Position numbers and translations under genes: made by a program. The notes under the pieces are model-generated. The model did no database searches and was not told the origin of the DNA. It saw only the letters and a list, made by a program, of their open reading frames with translations. Shown in pieces: positions 1,844 through 20,362 of a stretch of DNA of 20,362 nt; position 1 is the stretch's first letter; every line of letters starts with the position of its first letter. This stretch comes from a virus: positions 1 to 20,362 of the IMG/VR virus record IMGVR_UViG_3300036846_000313; one strand, 5' to 3'.

Positions 1844-2113
1844 CTAGAGCGGCGGTGTGTCCTGTATGGGTCGGCCCCATGCGTGGCGGGGCCGGTAGTG
1901 CGGTTCGGCCATGCTGGTGAATCCGTCGAGCGTGTCGAGCCCCTCGAGCGGGCAGTATCCGGGATCACAGAACGGGCACGGCCCACACGCGCAGAGCAGG
2001 TTGTGTGCGGCGTCGGCGAGGTCGACCAGGTTCGTTTCGGTCGGCTTGTCGGCCACGGCCCGGTACGCGTCGGCCCACCGTTGCGCCATTTCGGCGACCT
2101 CGGTGGCGGTCAC
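1844..2113 (-). CDS. Small cysteine-rich hypothetical protein (89 aa)
   Basis: An 89-aa protein with two parts. Residues 1-40 form an amphipathic helical segment (TATEVAEMAQRWADAY, then LVDLADAAHNLL), and residues 41-54 carry a tight cysteine knot, CACGPCPFCDPGYC, with five Cys in 14 positions, likely binding a metal. The GTG at 2113 shares a GTGA overlap with the stop of the HNH gene, so translation is probably coupled; the longer frame up to 2410 runs antisense-style through the HNH gene and has a nonsense-like Arg/Pro composition. No known family was recognised. It is one of several Zn-binding-looking proteins between the origin candidate and the terminase. Confidence 0.75.
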   Translation of the reverse strand: MTATEVAEMAQRWADAYRAVADKPTETNLVDLADAAHNLLCACGPCPFCDPGYCPLEGLDTLDGFTSMAEPHYRPRHAWGRPIQDTPPL

Positions 2114-2376
2114 AGGCGCAGGTCGGTGCCGAGGTTGCGCCGATCGTTCGTGTGCGCTGCGCCGCGCGCGGCGTTGCATGGCCGGCACGCGGCCCGCAGA
2201 TTCGCGGGGTCGAACACCTGCCCGCCGTCGGCGCGGCTGACAATGTGGTCGACCTCGGTGGCGAGCTGTGTGCATTTCGGGCCGCGTATCTGACATTGGC
2301 CGCGGTCGCGGTCGAGGACCCACAGGCGCAGGAGCCGGTAGGCGCGGGTTTGTATTCGTGCGTCCGAGGTCGTCAT
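2110..2376 (-). CDS. HNH endonuclease
   Basis: An 88-aa stand-alone HNH nuclease. Visible motifs are C28 and C35 (RDRGQCQIRGPKC), the catalytic EVDHI (D43-H44), N59 in FDPANLRAACRPCN and the second zinc pair C64/C67, so the beta-beta-alpha metal fold is complete. In cos-packaging phages such as HK97 a small HNH protein near the terminase stimulates specific cleavage by TerL; the position here, four genes before terL, fits that job. ATG 2376 has an AAGGA about 11 bases upstream; a GTG at 2385 would add MRH but sits too close to that site. A homing-type role is possible but less likely, since it interrupts nothing. Confidence 0.9.
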   Translation of the reverse strand: MTTSDARIQTRAYRLLRLWVLDRDRGQCQIRGPKCTQLATEVDHIVSRADGGQVFDPANLRAACRPCNAARGAAHTNDRRNLGTDLRL

Positions 2377-2422
2377 GTGCCGCACAGTCCTTTACCGAGC
2401 GACAGGACACGCAGCGGCCCGC

Positions 2423-2848
2423 TCACAGGTACCGTCCGCTGCCGCCGAGGTCGAGGTCGACCGGCCGTTGTGGTGTGTCGAGCCCCCGGTCGAAATGCAC
2501 CACGACGGTGCTGCCGTCGTCCCGGTCGCGGACCTCGAGGCCGGGCAGCGTCCGATCGGCGATGCGGTGCCGTTCGACCTCGAGGTCGGTGCAGCTGGTG
2601 AGGATTTCGGCGACGAGTCCGGCGAGCCAGTCGGCGAGCTCGGCGGACGGGTCGAGGTCGAGGTCGCCGGTCACCGGTCGGTGTCCCCGTCGAGTCAGGT
2701 CGCGGCCCACGATCCCCGCGATGTACCAGCAATCGGCGCAGGTCACGTCGCGAGGTATCGCGGTGATGCGTCGCGCGCCGGGGTGTCCGCACATGGTGCG
2801 GCCGCGGTTGCGGGTGCCGGTCAGGTGGACGCGCAGAGGTTCAGCCAT
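2423..2848 (-). CDS. Hypothetical protein with N-terminal Zn-ribbon-like motif
   Basis: A 141-aa protein. The first 45 residues (AEPLRVHLTG, then MCGHPGARRITAI, then VTCADCWYIAG) have the C-G-x-n-C-x2-C layout of short actinophage proteins with a treble-clef or ribbon-like metal site. The rest is acidic with a helical stretch (SAELADWLAGLVAEILTSC) and an extended beta-like tail (GSTVVVHFDRG). ATG 2848 has GAGAGG about 8 bases upstream and overlaps the previous stop by 8 bases. The frame extends further upstream to 3043, but that part is a Thr/Arg-rich shadow of the iteron region. Function unknown; DNA or RNA binding is plausible from the motif only. Confidence 0.75.
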   Translation of the reverse strand: MAEPLRVHLTGTRNRGRTMCGHPGARRITAIPRDVTCADCWYIAGIVGRDLTRRGHRPVTGDLDLDPSAELADWLAGLVAEILTSCTDLEVERHRIADRTLPGLEVRDRDDGSTVVVHFDRGLDTPQRPVDLDLGGSGRYL

Positions 2849-3422
2849 CGGTTTCGCCTCTCGGTTCGAGGGCCGCGCGCGCGGCGGCCATTCCGCGCCG
2901 CGCACGTTCCCGTTCGAGGTCGTCGAGCGGCGCGGTTGCTTCCAGGTCGCCGGCTTGGTGGTAGTGGCGCGCGTGTGTGTCACGCGGTGTCGGCGTGTCG
3001 TGCGTGTCACGCGGTGTCGGCGTGTCACGCGGTGTCGTGTCACGCGGTGAGGGGCCAGCGTGACCAGGGGAGGCCGTGACAGGGGGACCCCCCCTTAAAA
3101 GGGGGTCCCCTGTCACGCCCCTGTCACGCTCCGTCTCCGACCAGGGATTTTCCATCTCCGAACGTGACACCGCGTGACAGGTTTTGTCACGCGCTGTCAC
3201 GCTGCCGTTGTCACGCGCTGTCACGCTTTCGTTGTCCCGTTCGCGGTATCGACGCTGCCGATCGCGGGCGACCGCGCGCCGCTGGTCGGCCGCGTCGTCG
3301 ACAGTCAGCGCCCAGATATCCGCGCCGACGCGGACCCAGGCCGCGCCGACCTCGAGCGCGGCGCGTGTCTGCGTCGTCGGATCGCTACCGGGCGGGCACA
3401 CGATCACCAGCGACACGCTCAC
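2841..3422 (-). CDS. Putative replication-associated protein containing the origin-like iterons
   Basis: A 193-aa protein. Residues 1-48 form a small hydrophobic/charged N-domain (SLVIVCPPGSDPTTQTRAAL, then WVRVGADIWALTVDDAADQ). A basic helix RDRQRRYRERD follows at 54-63, then a low-complexity linker (about 65-155) made of SVTARDNG and PTPRDTHDTPTPRDT repeats, then an acidic/basic C-terminal helix (DDLERERARRG). The QRRYRER-helix-plus-VT/RD linker arrangement recurs in phage and actinobacterial replication-region proteins as I know them; no initiator fold is proven. GTG 3422 shares GTGA with the upstream stop. The linker's DNA carries 13 copies of TGTCACG, encoded in more than one frame, so selection seems to act on DNA. 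By analogy with lambda O, the gene may hold its own origin. Confidence 0.65.
   Translation of the reverse strand: MSVSLVIVCPPGSDPTTQTRAALEVGAAWVRVGADIWALTVDDAADQRRAVARDRQRRYRERDNESVTARDNGSVTARDKTCHAVSRSEMENPWSETERDRGVTGDPLLRGGPPVTASPGHAGPSPRDTTPRDTPTPRDTHDTPTPRDTHARHYHQAGDLEATAPLDDLERERARRGMAAARAALEPRGETDG
2978..3225. repeat. Iteron array: 13 copies of TGTCACG, candidate replication origin
   Basis: The heptamer TGTCACG, or its complement CGTGACA, occurs with first bases at 2978, 3005, 3023, 3038, 3075(-), 3111, 3122, 3163(-), 3173(-), 3185, 3195, 3209 and 3219. Several neighbours are spaced exactly 10 bp apart (3163/3173, 3185/3195, 3209/3219), one helical turn, which is typical of protein-binding iterons. 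The left part also contains a 27-bp period (about 2977-3026). The array lies wholly inside the 193-aa gene. The same heptamer is read as VTA, RDT and CHA in different frames and orientations, so it is not a simple amino-acid repeat. An origin or partition-like site is inferred; no experiment supports it here. Confidence 0.7.
3075..3117. repeat. Large dyad centred in the iteron array
   Basis: The left arm is CGTGACA followed by GGGGGACCCCC (3075-3092). The right arm is GGGGGTCCCC followed by TGTCACG (3101-3117). The arms are reverse complements apart from one extra G on the left, and the centre is ccttaaaa. Each G/C block is itself nearly palindromic. The dyad is bounded by inverted iterons and can form a long cruciform or hairpin on either strand. 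It is embedded in coding sequence (GVTGDPLLRGGPPVTA), so a terminator role is unlikely; an origin dyad is the preferred reading. Confidence 0.75.
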
Positions 3423-3646
3423 AGGATCAGCTCGAGCCGCGGGTGGTGTTCGGTGTCGGCGTGCCGTTGCGCGGCGGTGTAGGTGCGGTGCAGCGCCCCA
3501 CAGGTGACGCAGCGGAACCGGCCCGGAACAGAAGGATGATTCCGGGCCGGTCCGCCGGCCGGCGCAGGACAACCAGCCGCGCCGGAGGTCGCCGGCCCGG
3601 TGCCCGGTGATGCCCGCATTTTCGGCGGCAGGTCGGCGAGGTTCAC
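3419..3646 (-). CDS. C2H2 zinc-finger-like small protein
   Basis: A 75-aa protein with a flexible Gly/Pro/Ala-rich first half and one finger-like motif at residues 46-68: C46-x2-C49-x12-H62-x4-H67, within FRCVTCGALHRTYTAAQRH. This matches the classical C2H2 spacing, including an aromatic residue before the first Cys (F44) and hydrophobic or aromatic residues inside. Such fingers bind nucleic acid or protein. GTG 3646 shares GTGA with the upstream stop; an in-frame GTG at 3667 would add seven residues but overlaps the upstream gene more. Its stop overlaps the start of the iteron-bearing gene, so the two are translationally coupled; a DNA-binding partner at the origin is conceivable but unproven. 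Confidence 0.7.
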   Translation of the reverse strand: MNLADLPPKMRASPGTGPATSGAAGCPAPAGGPARNHPSVPGRFRCVTCGALHRTYTAAQRHADTEHHPRLELIL

Positions 3647-3744
3647 TCGTGCCGCCGGTCGTACCACAGGACTGCGCCGATCAGGATGAGGACCAGCACC
3701 GCCGCGCCGCCGATGGTGTCGAGCAGGTAGTAAGCAACGTTCAC
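3643..3744 (-). CDS. 33-aa single-pass membrane peptide
   Basis: A very short gene supported by coupling and composition. GTG 3744 shares GTGA with the preceding stop and the stop (TGA) shares GTGA with the next start. The peptide is VNVAYYLLDT then IGGAAVLVLILIGAVLWYDRRHE: one transmembrane helix at about residues 8-27 with a basic/acidic C-terminal tail, suggesting an N-out/C-in topology. Function is unknown. Phage peptides of this type act in superinfection exclusion or membrane effects, but that is only a possibility. The frame remains open far upstream (to 4086), where the predicted sequence is Arg/Pro-rich shadow. Confidence 0.6.
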   Translation of the reverse strand: MNVAYYLLDTIGGAAVLVLILIGAVLWYDRRHE

Positions 3745-3950
3745 CGGTGACCTCCGAGCAGTCGGGCCGGCGCGCATGCTTCCAGGTATTTCGCGAGGTC
3801 GACTCCGCCGTAGATCGCGGCGAGGGGTTCGTCGTCGGCCCACAGGATCAGCGTGCCGTCCTCGGCCCGGCGGTGGGTCCACGGTCCGGCCGGGACCTCG
3901 GCCGCGAGCTCGGCGAGCCGTTCGTGTTCGGGGCCGTCGTCGAGGATCAC
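3741..3950 (-). CDS. Small acidic hypothetical protein (69 aa)
   Basis: A 69-aa soluble acidic protein starting with GTG 3950 (GTGA overlap with the stop of the upstream membrane peptide) and ending in a GTGA overlap with the next gene. It reads MILDDGPEHERLAELAAEVP, then a beta-type core (GPWTHRRAEDGTLILWADDEPLAAI cut between residues 22 and 46), then GVDLAKYLEACAPARLLGG. The layout of a helix, a W..R..DGTLI strand pair and a terminal helix is common in short actinophage proteins of unknown function (the AALRAAAPALL-type tail). No assigned role. Confidence 0.7.
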   Translation of the reverse strand: MILDDGPEHERLAELAAEVPAGPWTHRRAEDGTLILWADDEPLAAIYGGVDLAKYLEACAPARLLGGHR

Positions 3951-4111
3951 CGGGGCACCTTGCGCACGGTCGGCGGCGGTGCGGGGACGGCCACCCGCCA
4001 GCGGGGCCAGGTGTGGTCGCGGCGGTGGCGGGTTCGGCCGGCGGCGGTGAGGCCGACACCGAGGCCGAACAGGACCGCGCCGACACCGAACAGGACCGCG
4101 CCGGCCAGCAT
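3947..4111 (-). CDS. 54-aa small membrane protein
   Basis: Starts at ATG 4111, which shares its A with the TGA stop of recT (TGATG), and ends with a GTGA overlap into the next gene. Residues 1-25 (MLAGAVLFGVGAVLFGLGVG and LTAAG) form one Gly/Val/Leu-rich transmembrane helix; the remainder is a basic, Pro-rich tail (RTRHRRDHTWPRW to VRKVPR), likely cytoplasmic. No family recognised. The tight coupling on both sides is the main reason to accept it as a gene. Confidence 0.6.
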   Translation of the reverse strand: MLAGAVLFGVGAVLFGLGVGLTAAGRTRHRRDHTWPRWRVAVPAPPPTVRKVPR

Positions 4112-5067
4112 CACCGGTCGGCCTCCTCGTCGCCGTCGAGCTCGGCCGGGGTCGACTCGAGGTATTCGATCAGGTGGTCGGCCTCGGTGGCGGTGAGGTC
4201 CGCGGCGGAGGTGAGGTCGCGGCCGACCACCTCGCCGGACAGGCGGAGCCGTTCGGCCCGGTCGGTGATGCCCCGGTCGCGGAACAGGCCATGCATGCGG
4301 TTGCGTTGCGCGTTGCGCATGCGCATCGGTTCGGCCTCGACCTCGTCGGCCTCGACCTCGGTGTCGGGCAGCTCGCCGGGCAGAGGTGGCAGCGCCGGAA
4401 CCGGCGCGGCCACAGGCTTGACCGGTCCCGGCACCGCCGTCGGCGGCGACTGGTCCACCCCCATGCGTCGCCGTCGCCGTGAGGTCGCGGCCGGCGGAGC
4501 CATGGGAACCCCGTCGGCCGCGACACCTTCGTCGGCCGCGACACCTTCGTCGGCCTCCTCGAGCGCGCCGAGGCCGGCGACCACGTCCGAGAACATTGCC
4601 CGGACCAGCTCGGCCGACGCGCGCGCGGACAGCATCTGCCGCGGGTACGCGCGCCACGACGGTTTCCCCTCGAGCCGGGCGCGGCGTGCGTCGTCCATGG
4701 TCCAGGTGATGCGGGTGACCTCGGGGGTGCCGGCCCGCTGCCCGCACCACGTCACCTTGGTGTTCGTGGCCTCGTCGAGCCACAGCTTGTGCCCGGCGGC
4801 GAGGACGAGCGCCCGTTGTGATTCGGCCGCGATGAATGGCCGGCCTTCGATCACCGCGATTTTCGCGAGCGATTGCATGGGACCGAGGCCGACCTCGTCG
4901 CCGTACAGGATCGCCGCGGAAATCGCGGCCGCGTTGTTGCGCATCGGGCGGGGCACGAAATCGGTTGCGGCAATCGCCTTCGCGAGCTCCACCGCCGGGG
5001 CCATGAGATCGACCCACGAACGCCGGGCCGGCGCGTCGACCTCGAGCGGGAGCCGGGCGAGCGTCAC
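4111..5067 (-). CDS. recT: RecT-family single-strand annealing protein
   Basis: A 318-aa phage recombinase that would anneal single strands produced by the neighbouring exonuclease. Residues about 20-165 carry the RecT-like core: LAKAIAATDFVP, then AAILYGDEVGLGPMQSLAKI, the conserved EGRPFIAAESQRALVLAAGH, then YPRQMLSARASAELVRAMF. A Pro/Ala/Glu linker follows (about 170-250), then a C-terminal helical domain, NRMHGLFRDRGITDRAERLR to TATEADHLIEYLE, often found at the C-terminus of actinophage recombination proteins. GTG 5067 is chosen because it shares GTGA with the upstream stop; the much longer frame to 5649 is antisense-like. An 18-bp tandem repeat in the linker is noted separately. Confidence 0.9.
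   Translation of the reverse strand: MTLARLPLEVDAPARRSWVDLMAPAVELAKAIAATDFVPRPMRNNAAAISAAILYGDEVGLGPMQSLAKIAVIEGRPFIAAESQRALVLAAGHKLWLDEATNTKVTWCGQRAGTPEVTRITWTMDDARRARLEGKPSWRAYPRQMLSARASAELVRAMFSDVVAGLGALEEADEGVAADEGVAADGVPMAPPAATSRRRRRMGVDQSPPTAVPGPVKPVAAPVPALPPLPGELPDTEVEADEVEAEPMRMRNAQRNRMHGLFRDRGITDRAERLRLSGEVVGRDLTSAADLTATEADHLIEYLESTPAELDGDEEADR
4513..4548. repeat. 18-bp tandem duplication in the RecT linker
   Basis: The unit gtcggccgcgacaccttc occurs twice in tandem (4513-4530, 4531-4548), with a partial third copy after it. In the protein it gives ADEGVAADEGVAAD in the disordered linker, so it is a neutral in-frame expansion. Confidence 0.85.
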
Positions 5068-5384
5068 GGCACCGACCACACGATCGCCCGCCGACCGGAC
5101 CGCAGGCGCACGCGCTGCCCGGTATCGATCACCAGCCCCGCCGCGGTCAACTCGCTCCGGCGGGTGCGGAGCCCCGACGCGGACTGGTGCGGGTCGCCGG
5201 GGTAACGGTCGACGAGCGCGGTGTCGGTCATCGGTCCGCAGTCGCGCAGGAATCGGAGCACCGCTTGTTGGGAACGCCGAACGTAGGCCGGGTGCAGACT
5301 TTCGGCGGCCTCGAACGACGTGTGCGGGTCGCTGCGCCGGGCGCGGGTCCGGGCCTCGAACAGCGGCAATTGTTCCACGGTCAT
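5064..5384 (-). CDS. Winged-helix DNA-binding-like protein
   Basis: A 106-aa protein between the exonuclease and recT, coupled to both by ATGA and GTGA overlaps. After a short lead (MTVEQLPLFEARTRARRSDP) it has HTSFEAAESL, a helix SQQAVLRFLRDCGPMTDTAL, the recognition-type helix SASGLRTRRSELTAAGL and a wing strand pair VIDTGQRVRLRSGRRAIVWS. This is the layout of phage winged-helix proteins (HTSxxAA...R..EL...G.I), which are often annotated as replication or transcriptional regulators. It could be a DNA-binding cofactor of the recombination pair or the only visible regulator in the early operon; the sequence does not decide between these. Confidence 0.8.
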   Translation of the reverse strand: MTVEQLPLFEARTRARRSDPHTSFEAAESLHPAYVRRSQQAVLRFLRDCGPMTDTALVDRYPGDPHQSASGLRTRRSELTAAGLVIDTGQRVRLRSGRRAIVWSVP

Positions 5385-6145
5385 GCGACCGCCACCTCGG
5401 GCAGGATCGGCGCACCGACGGTCGCGGTGCGCTCGAGCGCCCGGAACGCGGCGACCTGTTGCGCGTACAGAAACGCGCGGAACGTGCCCGCGCCGATATC
5501 GAGCGGGAGCACGTCATAACCATCGGCGCGCAGGTGCACCGCCGCGGCGCGGGTCGGGGTCGGCATCGGCACCTCGGTGCCGTCGGCGTCGAGCATCGTC
5601 GCGCAATGCGCGTACGCGGCGGCCTGTAGCGCGGCCTCCGGCCACACACCGGACGCGGAGGTCTTCCAATCGAGGACCCACACCTCGGCCGCTCGGCCGA
5701 GCCGGGCGAGGAGGTCCGCCGCGCCCATGTACCGGTACTCGCGATTGATGACGGTGCACTCGACCGCGAGCTCGGCGACCTGCCAGTCGGTGAGAAACGC
5801 GAGGCATTGGTCGACGTGGTCGACGTAGGGTTCGGGGACGTCGACCTCGGCTCCGCCGATCAGCGCGGCCGCGTACTCGTGGACTTTTGTGCCGCGCACG
5901 GTCGCCGCGCCCCACGACTCGAACCGGCCTTTTTCGATCTTGCGGAGCCGTTGCGAGACGCCGAGCTCGGCGAGCTCGGCCCAATTGTTCACCGCGTAAT
6001 TCGCGGTTTCGCGCGCGGCGGCGTCGATCAGCGCCGGTTTCGGGACGCCTTCGCCGATGATGCGGGTGACCCCGTCGACCGGTTCGCCGTCGAGGAGGTA
6101 GCTGTGTCCGCTACCACGATTGATTCGCCGGGTCGCGCCGGGCAT
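5381..6145 (-). CDS. Cas4/RecB-like (PD-(D/E)XK) phage exonuclease
   Basis: A 254-aa nuclease that would resect double-stranded ends for RecT. The fold's signature is visible: GTKVHEYAA with H89 and E90, E129 in LAVECTVINREYRYMGAADL, D144 in MGAADLLARL, D159-x-K161 in VLDWKTS, and Q174/Y178 in AALQAAAYA. The N-terminus GSGHSYLLDGEPVDGVTRII is typical of actinophage Cas4-like exonucleases. No C-terminal iron-sulfur cysteine cluster is visible, unlike true Cas4. It begins at ATG 6145, nine bases after the excisionase stop, and ends in an ATGA overlap with the winged-helix gene. Together with recT it forms a two-component recombination system. Confidence 0.92.
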   Translation of the reverse strand: MPGATRRINRGSGHSYLLDGEPVDGVTRIIGEGVPKPALIDAAARETANYAVNNWAELAELGVSQRLRKIEKGRFESWGAATVRGTKVHEYAAALIGGAEVDVPEPYVDHVDQCLAFLTDWQVAELAVECTVINREYRYMGAADLLARLGRAAEVWVLDWKTSASGVWPEAALQAAAYAHCATMLDADGTEVPMPTPTRAAAVHLRADGYDVLPLDIGAGTFRAFLYAQQVAAFRALERTATVGAPILPEVAVA

Positions 6146-19504: not shown

Positions 19505-20362
19505 GAAGCTGCCGAGGTCGACCGGTGCGTGATCGTAGGCCCACACCGCGCACGTCGCGGCGGTGAGCGGCGCGATCGACACCGACGATTGCCGGCGGCC
19601 CCACGCCCACGCGTCGGCGAGGGTGCGCCGGGCGGCCGACGCGGCCGCGGCGTCGAGACTGGCATGCGGCCGGTACCGGACCGCGGGCGGGTCCGCGACG
19701 AGCGCCTCGAGCAGTCCCGCGCACGCGGCCGAATATTCGCGGGCCTTGAGGCCGATCAGGTCGAACCCGGCCCGCTCGAGCTGGTCGGCCACGTCGAGCG
19801 CCGGACCCGCGGCGTCATATCCGAGCGCGCGGGGCCGCCACCGGTCGACGAGCTCGGCCATACGTTCGGGGACCCATCCGACACCGGGCCGGCAGTCCGC
19901 GACCTCGAGCTCGAGCCCGCCGGCCGGGTCGCGCCAGGCGGCCACGATCGCCGCGTCGGACCGGTCGACCGCCACGTCGAACGCGAGCGCCACCGCGCCC
20001 ACCTCCGGCAGCGGCAGGTCCGGGTCGGCCGCGGCCCGCCAGGCGGTGAGCGGAATCACTCGGGCCACCGTCGAGGTCCACCGGTTCCCATACGCGCGGG
20101 CGAACTCGTCCGGGCCGAGGAGGTCGAGCGCGGCGTGCATCGCCGGTTCACCGATCGTGCGGCCGTAGGCGGGGTGATATTCCGGCCAGCTCGCCGGGTC
20201 GACCGGGTCGAGGCCGTCGGGGCAGGACCAGTCGAAAAACGCGATGCCGTCCCGCCGGTCGGCGAGCGCCGCGGCACGGCCCTGTTCCACGGTGCCGAGC
20301 CACCACGTCGAGGTTGCATCACCCGCGGTCGAACATTTCAGCACCTGCGCGTTCGGGCGGGT
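19493..20362 (-). CDS. terL: Terminase large subunit, C-terminal part incl. nuclease (joins 604-1)
   Basis: This is the 3' portion of the gene whose 5' part is at 604-1; bases 20236-20362 duplicate 1-127, so the gene runs 604 to 1 then 20235 to 19493. The segment begins with the end of the ATPase domain (KCSTAGDATSTWWLG), a GLDPVDPASWPEYHPAYGRT linker, FARAYGNRWTSTVARVIPL, and then an RNase-H-like nuclease domain: acidic residues in AFDVAVDRSDAAIVAAW (D288 and neighbours of the joined protein), in ALGYDAAGPALDVAD (D342), and a final WAWGRRQSSVSIAPLTAATC segment. It cuts the DNA during headful or cos packaging. It ends TAG at 19493-19495, just before the portal start. Confidence 0.95.
   Translation of the reverse strand, partial: TRPNAQVLKCSTAGDATSTWWLGTVEQGRAAALADRRDGIAFFDWSCPDGLDPVDPASWPEYHPAYGRTIGEPAMHAALDLLGPDEFARAYGNRWTSTVARVIPLTAWRAAADPDLPLPEVGAVALAFDVAVDRSDAAIVAAWRDPAGGLELEVADCRPGVGWVPERMAELVDRWRPRALGYDAAGPALDVADQLERAGFDLIGLKAREYSAACAGLLEALVADPPAVRYRPHASLDAAAASAARRTLADAWAWGRRQSSVSIAPLTAATCAVWAYDHAPVDLGSFRVW
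20236..20362. repeat. 127-bp terminal direct repeat (copy of 1-127)
   Basis: Bases 1-127 and 20236-20362 are identical over their full length, and the terL frame is continuous across either copy. A repeat of exactly 127 bases equals a common maximal assembler k-mer, which points to a circular assembly rather than a genuine terminal repeat. It lies inside terL coding sequence, another argument against a biological end. Confidence 0.9.

Follow-up and report, generated by a model that had tools for sequence, protein, structure and literature searches.

A probable iteron origin inside a phage gene

In plasmids, iterons of the RepA/RepE type are direct repeats of about 17–22 bp arranged in helical phase. 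In phage lambda and the Stx phages, the iterons lie in the middle of gene O, beside an AT-rich tract (oriLambda); lambda has four of them and the Stx phages six, longer than the sites described below and accompanied by a clear AT-rich tract (PMC7466680). RNA-based prophage origins also exist and are known from mycobacteriophages (PMC7157519). The DNA analyzed here (the window, a whole stretch of 20,362 nucleotides) harbors an array of 13 heptamers within a small gene, and this block is probably a cis-acting phage replication origin of the iteron kind. An earlier sequence-only reading of the same DNA had proposed an origin of a previously undescribed type; that wording is too strong, because lambda already shows an iteron origin inside a phage gene. 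What is new here is a carrier gene without a recognizable initiator domain, a conserved hairpin and the concerted change of the repeat unit among relatives.

A closed phage genome and its early operon

The first and last 127 bases of the record (1–127 and 20236–20362) form an exact direct repeat, and the gene of the large terminase subunit (TerL) is divided between both ends of the record, which is therefore closed, with a genome length of about 20,235 bp (~20.2 kb). The phage is a complete, ~20-kb one of putative actinobacterial type. The L254 record (25,225 bases), with a 97-bp terminal direct repeat, adds another closed genome from this phage group. The genes recognized with Pfam and PHROG, all of them on the minus strand, encode a portal, a head protease, a major head protein, a tape measure protein, an integrase, an excisionase-like helix-turn-helix (HTH) protein, an exonuclease, RecT and an HNH nuclease. 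The genes that matter for the array are the following:

5381–6145, minus strand, exonuclease (phrog_298, E 6.7e-31)
4111–5040, minus strand, RecT-like annealing protein (phrog_4171, E 4.8e-46 for the part searched)
3741–3950, minus strand, 69-aa gene, function unassigned, conserved in relatives
3419–3667, minus strand, 82-aa Cys/His gene, zinc-finger-like by eye, directly upstream of the carrier and conserved in several relatives
2841–3422, minus strand, 193-aa carrier ORF of the array, its GTG start overlapping the stop of the upstream gene, with homologues in ten related records
2110–2385, minus strand, HNH gene, between the array and the terminase genes
627–1070, terminase small subunit, placed by synteny only

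The array gene belongs to the early operon, behind the exonuclease and recT. In most relatives, the 69-aa and 82-aa Cys/His genes also stand between recT and the array gene. In the closest relative, a DUF6551 protein (PF20188; L246:4800-5738) is found between the HNH and terminase genes.

No helicase, primase, polymerase or initiator was recognized among the window proteins scanned against Pfam and PHROG, nor were ParA or ParB genes, and an integrase is present. Additionally, profiles of DnaB-like proteins (phrog_19) and primase/helicases (phrog_239), which were positive in 14 of 14 control genomes, had no match in the window or in eleven related records. The sequence-only reading had remarked that no helicase, primase or polymerase was visible, and in the closed genome both kinds of scan agree with it.

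The heptamer array

The array and its elements, with the blocks numbered in coding-strand order, are arranged as follows:

2978–3225, unstranded, array of 13 TGTCACG/CGTGACA heptamers in both orientations
3163–3225, unstranded, repeat block 1, six heptamers, three 10-bp pairs
3138–3160, minus strand, short AT-rich spot (coding strand GGAGATGGAAAATCCCTGG) separating block 1 from the hairpin
3072–3120, unstranded, central inverted repeat with arms ending in the heptamer (folded as DNA, z -6.4)
2978–3044, unstranded, repeat block 2, four heptamers with TGTCACGCGGTG context

All 13 exact copies fall at 2978–3225 and none elsewhere in the 20,362 bases; ten read TGTCACG and three CGTGACA on the plus strand, with starts spaced by 27, 18, 15, 37, 36, 11, 41, 10, 12, 10, 14 and 10 bases. 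On the coding (minus) strand they occupy five of the six combinations of orientation and phase; in the sixth, the heptamer would introduce a TGA stop. When the whole window is shuffled with its dinucleotides kept, 4.75 ± 1.91 heptamers arise, at any position, and none of 100 shuffles reaches 13. This excess is not due to the peptide, because neither synonymous-codon permutation of the 193-aa ORF (mean 3.2, maximum 8 in 2000 trials) nor synonymous codons drawn by phage usage (mean 0.92, maximum 5) ever reach the observed 13; shuffling the codon order of the ORF gives a mean of 0.36 and a maximum of 4. The description first given of the array, 13 copies within 248 bases, is confirmed by the count over the genome, and its placing of copies in both orientations, several frames and both strands is borne out by ten against three copies in five orientation/phase combinations. 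The remark that several lie exactly 10 bp apart applies to three pairs, but the array overall is not regularly phased (spacings 10–41). The expected minimum of the cumulative GC skew near 3100 was found instead near 1101, with no extremum at the array.

Block 1 also holds a 17-nt inverted pair (3163–3179/3185–3201). The most AT-rich 13-mer outside the hairpin is the comparable spot, of about 13 nt, in eight of the eleven related phages (ties included), a recurrence of position that is suggestive only.

Unit replacement around a conserved hairpin

Relatives were reached through RecT and exonuclease searches of viral contigs, and ten of them hold the corresponding region (L246, L247, L248, L249, L253, L254, L255, L257, L259 and L261); L250, L256 and L258 break off inside recT or shortly beyond it and were left out of the array count, and the more distant L251, L252, L260 and L262 were left out of the comparison. 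In all ten, an array occupies the corresponding position, in a small ORF that lies two or three genes downstream of recT and is homologous to the 193-aa protein. The two align over the N-terminus, over a basic RxRQRRYRxR stretch that precedes the array and over a short helix that follows it; L253, inspected by eye, is not part of this alignment. The unit itself varies: GCGTCAC with GTTAC in L246 and L253, GCGTCAC in L259, GTTAC/GTCAC mixtures in L255 and L247, CGTAACG in L249, CGCGACGCG in L254, L257 and L261, and CGCGGACA in L248. For each of the five relatives tested, the count of its unit is higher than in any of 2000 synonymous permutations. The layout is common to the window and its ten relatives and consists of a repeat block, a central hairpin of variable sequence and a second repeat block. 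Since the eleven keep this layout with differing units, the conserved item is DNA, and the unit is replaced in concert; a joint exchange of sites in different frames and on both strands, with the layout preserved, is what one expects of a putative DNA-binding array and not of a peptide repeat. The sequence-only reading had reached the same view of what is conserved, now strengthened by the shuffles exceeded and the units swapped in concert across frames and strands. It had regarded homologues that keep the amino-acid repeats and vary the heptamer as evidence to the contrary; half of this holds, in that the heptamer does vary, but it does so in concert across frames and strands, and the peptide changes with it.

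The central inverted repeat (3072–3120) is strong and was absent from the earlier reading. A hairpin stands between the two repeat blocks in all eleven phages, with folding z values of -2.8 to -8.2, and its sequences differ among them with pairing kept. These values come from folding the central segments, as an ungapped hairpin search was swamped by repeat-to-repeat pairing. No central hairpin was found in the TGTCACG arrays of other phages (0 of 34 loci), so this part of the architecture is the one without a known origin counterpart.

The carrier protein as candidate binder

The AlphaFold2 model of the carrier (mean pLDDT 62.5) comprises a small N-terminal β-α-β-β region, a long and confident basic helix (residues ~43–71) and a C-terminal helix (168–185), and the stretch encoded by the array (residues ~72–145) is predicted to be disordered, in accordance with the earlier placement of the array in the linker of the 193-aa protein. 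The carrier has no Pfam or PHROG match, and Foldseek returned no fold match with this weak model. By tblastn, no relative was confirmed for the 193-aa protein among viral contigs or for its L246 homologue among GenBank phages.

Among relative pairs with an exonuclease identity of at least 66%, the carrier N-termini are 43–72% identical where the unit is shared and 29–35% where it differs, a comparison of ten non-independent, overlapping pairs devised after the data had been seen. Shared and differing units are not told apart in this way by the identities of RecT or of the zinc-finger-like and excisionase-like genes, and only weakly by those of the 69-aa gene (75–89% shared versus 65–71% different, where known). 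As the N-terminus diverges when the unit changes, the N-terminal domain of the carrier may be the binder, and the pattern suggests that the carrier product reads the array; this assignment is rated lower than the origin function itself. A 106-aa gene (5064–5384) was set aside as the binder, being absent from the relatives examined. A universal host factor reading TGTCACG is weakened as a candidate because close relatives swap the unit and such arrays are rare in Actinobacteria (17 of 396 genomes, mostly tandem).

TGTCACG arrays elsewhere and the probable function of the block

Raw matches with three TGTCACG in a short stretch were as many as those of two control heptamers among the matches listed from the viral collection; raw counts are therefore uninformative, and only array quality differs. 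When near-duplicates were removed and at least six copies, non-tandem flanks and both orientations were required, 25 arrays of TGTCACG were left among the matches listed versus one for each of the two control heptamers. A broader set comprises 35 non-tandem, two-orientation TGTCACG loci with at least four copies among the matches listed, all in unrelated viral contigs; at least 18 of them lie inside initiator genes (ten loci, several PHROG families) or adjoin or edge primase/helicase genes (eight loci). The ten come from one chosen batch, in which ten of ten array-overlapping genes match replication-initiation, replisome-organizer, O-like or primosomal families, and in 14 initiator genes the TGTCACG count is above synonymous permutations in nearly all. 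Half of the genes at control-heptamer arrays (5 of 10) are initiators too, which shows that TGTCACG is not the sole unit and supports the idea that such arrays mark origins; in general, short arrays of this non-tandem kind within phage genes seem to be a sign of initiators, with TGTCACG as one common unit. In the literature searched, which was covered in part, TGTCACG/GTGACA arrays were not found described for phage initiator genes.

Some other repeats were observed along the way. TCACGTG arrays, a second iteron-like unit, lie inside initiator-family genes (phrog_2447/1882) in L420, L438, L482 and L515, and an array-bearing gene of a prophage family (L124:10293-11375) has a C-terminal DnaT domain (PF17948). 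TGTCCCC..TTGTCACG repeats are scattered in large number over the Coriobacteriales genome of L149 (G006) and probably represent an interspersed repeat of an unrelated kind.

Because comparable arrays occupy initiator genes or adjoin primase-helicase genes, a replication origin is the best-supported reading of the block. The origin had already been proposed in the sequence-only reading, and DNA-level constraint, the linker position, the missing enzymes and the comparable arrays speak for it; the skew gives no help, and the lack of a recognizable DNA-binding fold in the carrier, the hairpin without a counterpart in other phages' arrays and the few loci beside terminase genes count against it.

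The main rival is a packaging site, in which array and hairpin would be recognized, as a pac/cos-type site, by the HNH nuclease or by the small subunit of the terminase. The early operon indeed passes the array, then the HNH gene and then the terminase genes, and three or four of the 35 loci among the matches listed lie directly beside terminase genes (L053, L041 and L083, and L035 by eye), the first three of which are possibly packaging sites. The array of the window, however, lies ~1.9 kb upstream of the small subunit as placed by synteny, with several genes between, and is neither adjacent to it nor inside it; the corresponding distance in L246 is also about 1.9 kb, and most comparable arrays are found in initiator or primase-helicase contexts. 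Packaging is an unlikely reading.

Slightly less probable still is an array that binds a regulator (a repressor, an antitermination or a partition factor) and is no origin. Thirteen sites with a hairpin inside coding sequence are unlike an operator, and comparable arrays associate with replication genes, even though clusters of short sites in both orientations are also known from operators and centromeres, and a Cys/His protein and an excisionase-like HTH protein are encoded in the operon of the array. For partition, the integrase and the absence of recognized ParA/ParB in the window point the other way.

It is improbable that hairpin and repeats act as an RNA element in the early mRNA, in translation, stability or as a replication-control RNA. 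The inverted repeat pairs equally in the transcript of the gene, and the mycobacteriophage prophage origins provide a precedent (PMC7157519), but the two orientations of the heptamer are more in keeping with a DNA-binding protein than with a site on RNA, and the Rfam scan gave no family match above the gathering score. Least credible of all is a coding artefact, an RD/VT-rich low-complexity linker grown by slippage and devoid of DNA function: such repeats are frequent in linkers predicted to be disordered, but these copies are non-tandem, in five phases and two orientations and above synonymous permutations, and in the relatives arrays of other units surround a hairpin whose pairing is kept.

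A possible minimal replicon

The origin would consist of iteron-like protein-binding sites that flank a strong hairpin and a short AT-rich spot within a small early-operon gene. A phage-coded protein, most likely the carrier product through its N-terminal domain and basic helix, or alternatively a neighboring phage protein, would bind the heptamers co-operatively; the bound protein would distort or open the DNA, with strand opening at the hairpin or the AT-rich spot, and would recruit the host replisome, after which RecT and the exonuclease may support recombination-dependent replication. We infer that the sites are bound, which protein binds them, that the strands open and that host enzymes are recruited. 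A bolder version, which we offer tentatively and regard as doubtful, is a minimal replicon of a new design, a ~20-kb genome whose only recognizable replication functions are the exonuclease/RecT pair and the short array gene. An initiator of no known fold would here read a repeat-hairpin-repeat origin in its own linker, the unit and the N-terminal domain being swapped wholesale between phages.

The origin reading would give a handle, from sequence alone, on the start of replication in phages without recognizable replication proteins, and non-tandem, two-orientation heptamer arrays inside short genes could guide the search. With at least three classes of unit among them, the eleven related arrays may serve as a natural system for the joint change of initiator and site under coding constraint, and the carrier may be a lead to a novel family of very small initiators.

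Comparison with known origins

Unlike a ParABS centromere, the array has no parA or parB recognized among the window proteins scanned. It resembles the origins of iteron plasmids in having repeated, putatively protein-binding sites, and differs from them in its 7-bp unit, its two orientations, its irregular spacings (10–41) and the absence of an adjacent Rep initiator in the Pfam/PHROG scan. The RepA-like initiator gene of the Mycobacterium prophage prophiT36-2a and gp58 of Rhodococcus phage Sleepyhead stand, like the carrier, downstream of an exonuclease and recT, and their proteins have a basic stretch followed by a hydrophilic linker; unlike the carrier, they are longer, with N- and C-terminal domains of their own, and a dense array was not found in either gene. 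The arrays in phage initiator genes (phrog_3729, 2509, 5968, 8540, 678 and others) come closer, since their TGTCACG copies are likewise non-tandem, in both orientations and intragenic, often after a basic RKRRQRE-like stretch as in the window, whereas their proteins have a recognizable N-terminal initiator domain and the arrays lack a central hairpin. With respect to oriLambda, the window has 13 heptamers of mixed orientation around a GC-rich hairpin and, in place of the clear AT-rich tract, only a spot of ~13 nt, comparably placed in eight of eleven (with ties), and its carrier is without a recognizable initiator domain. As the carrier encodes no recognizable initiator, the array is called lambda-like in its working and not a member; what it shares with oriLambda is a cluster of repeated short sites inside one coding gene, constrained at the DNA level.
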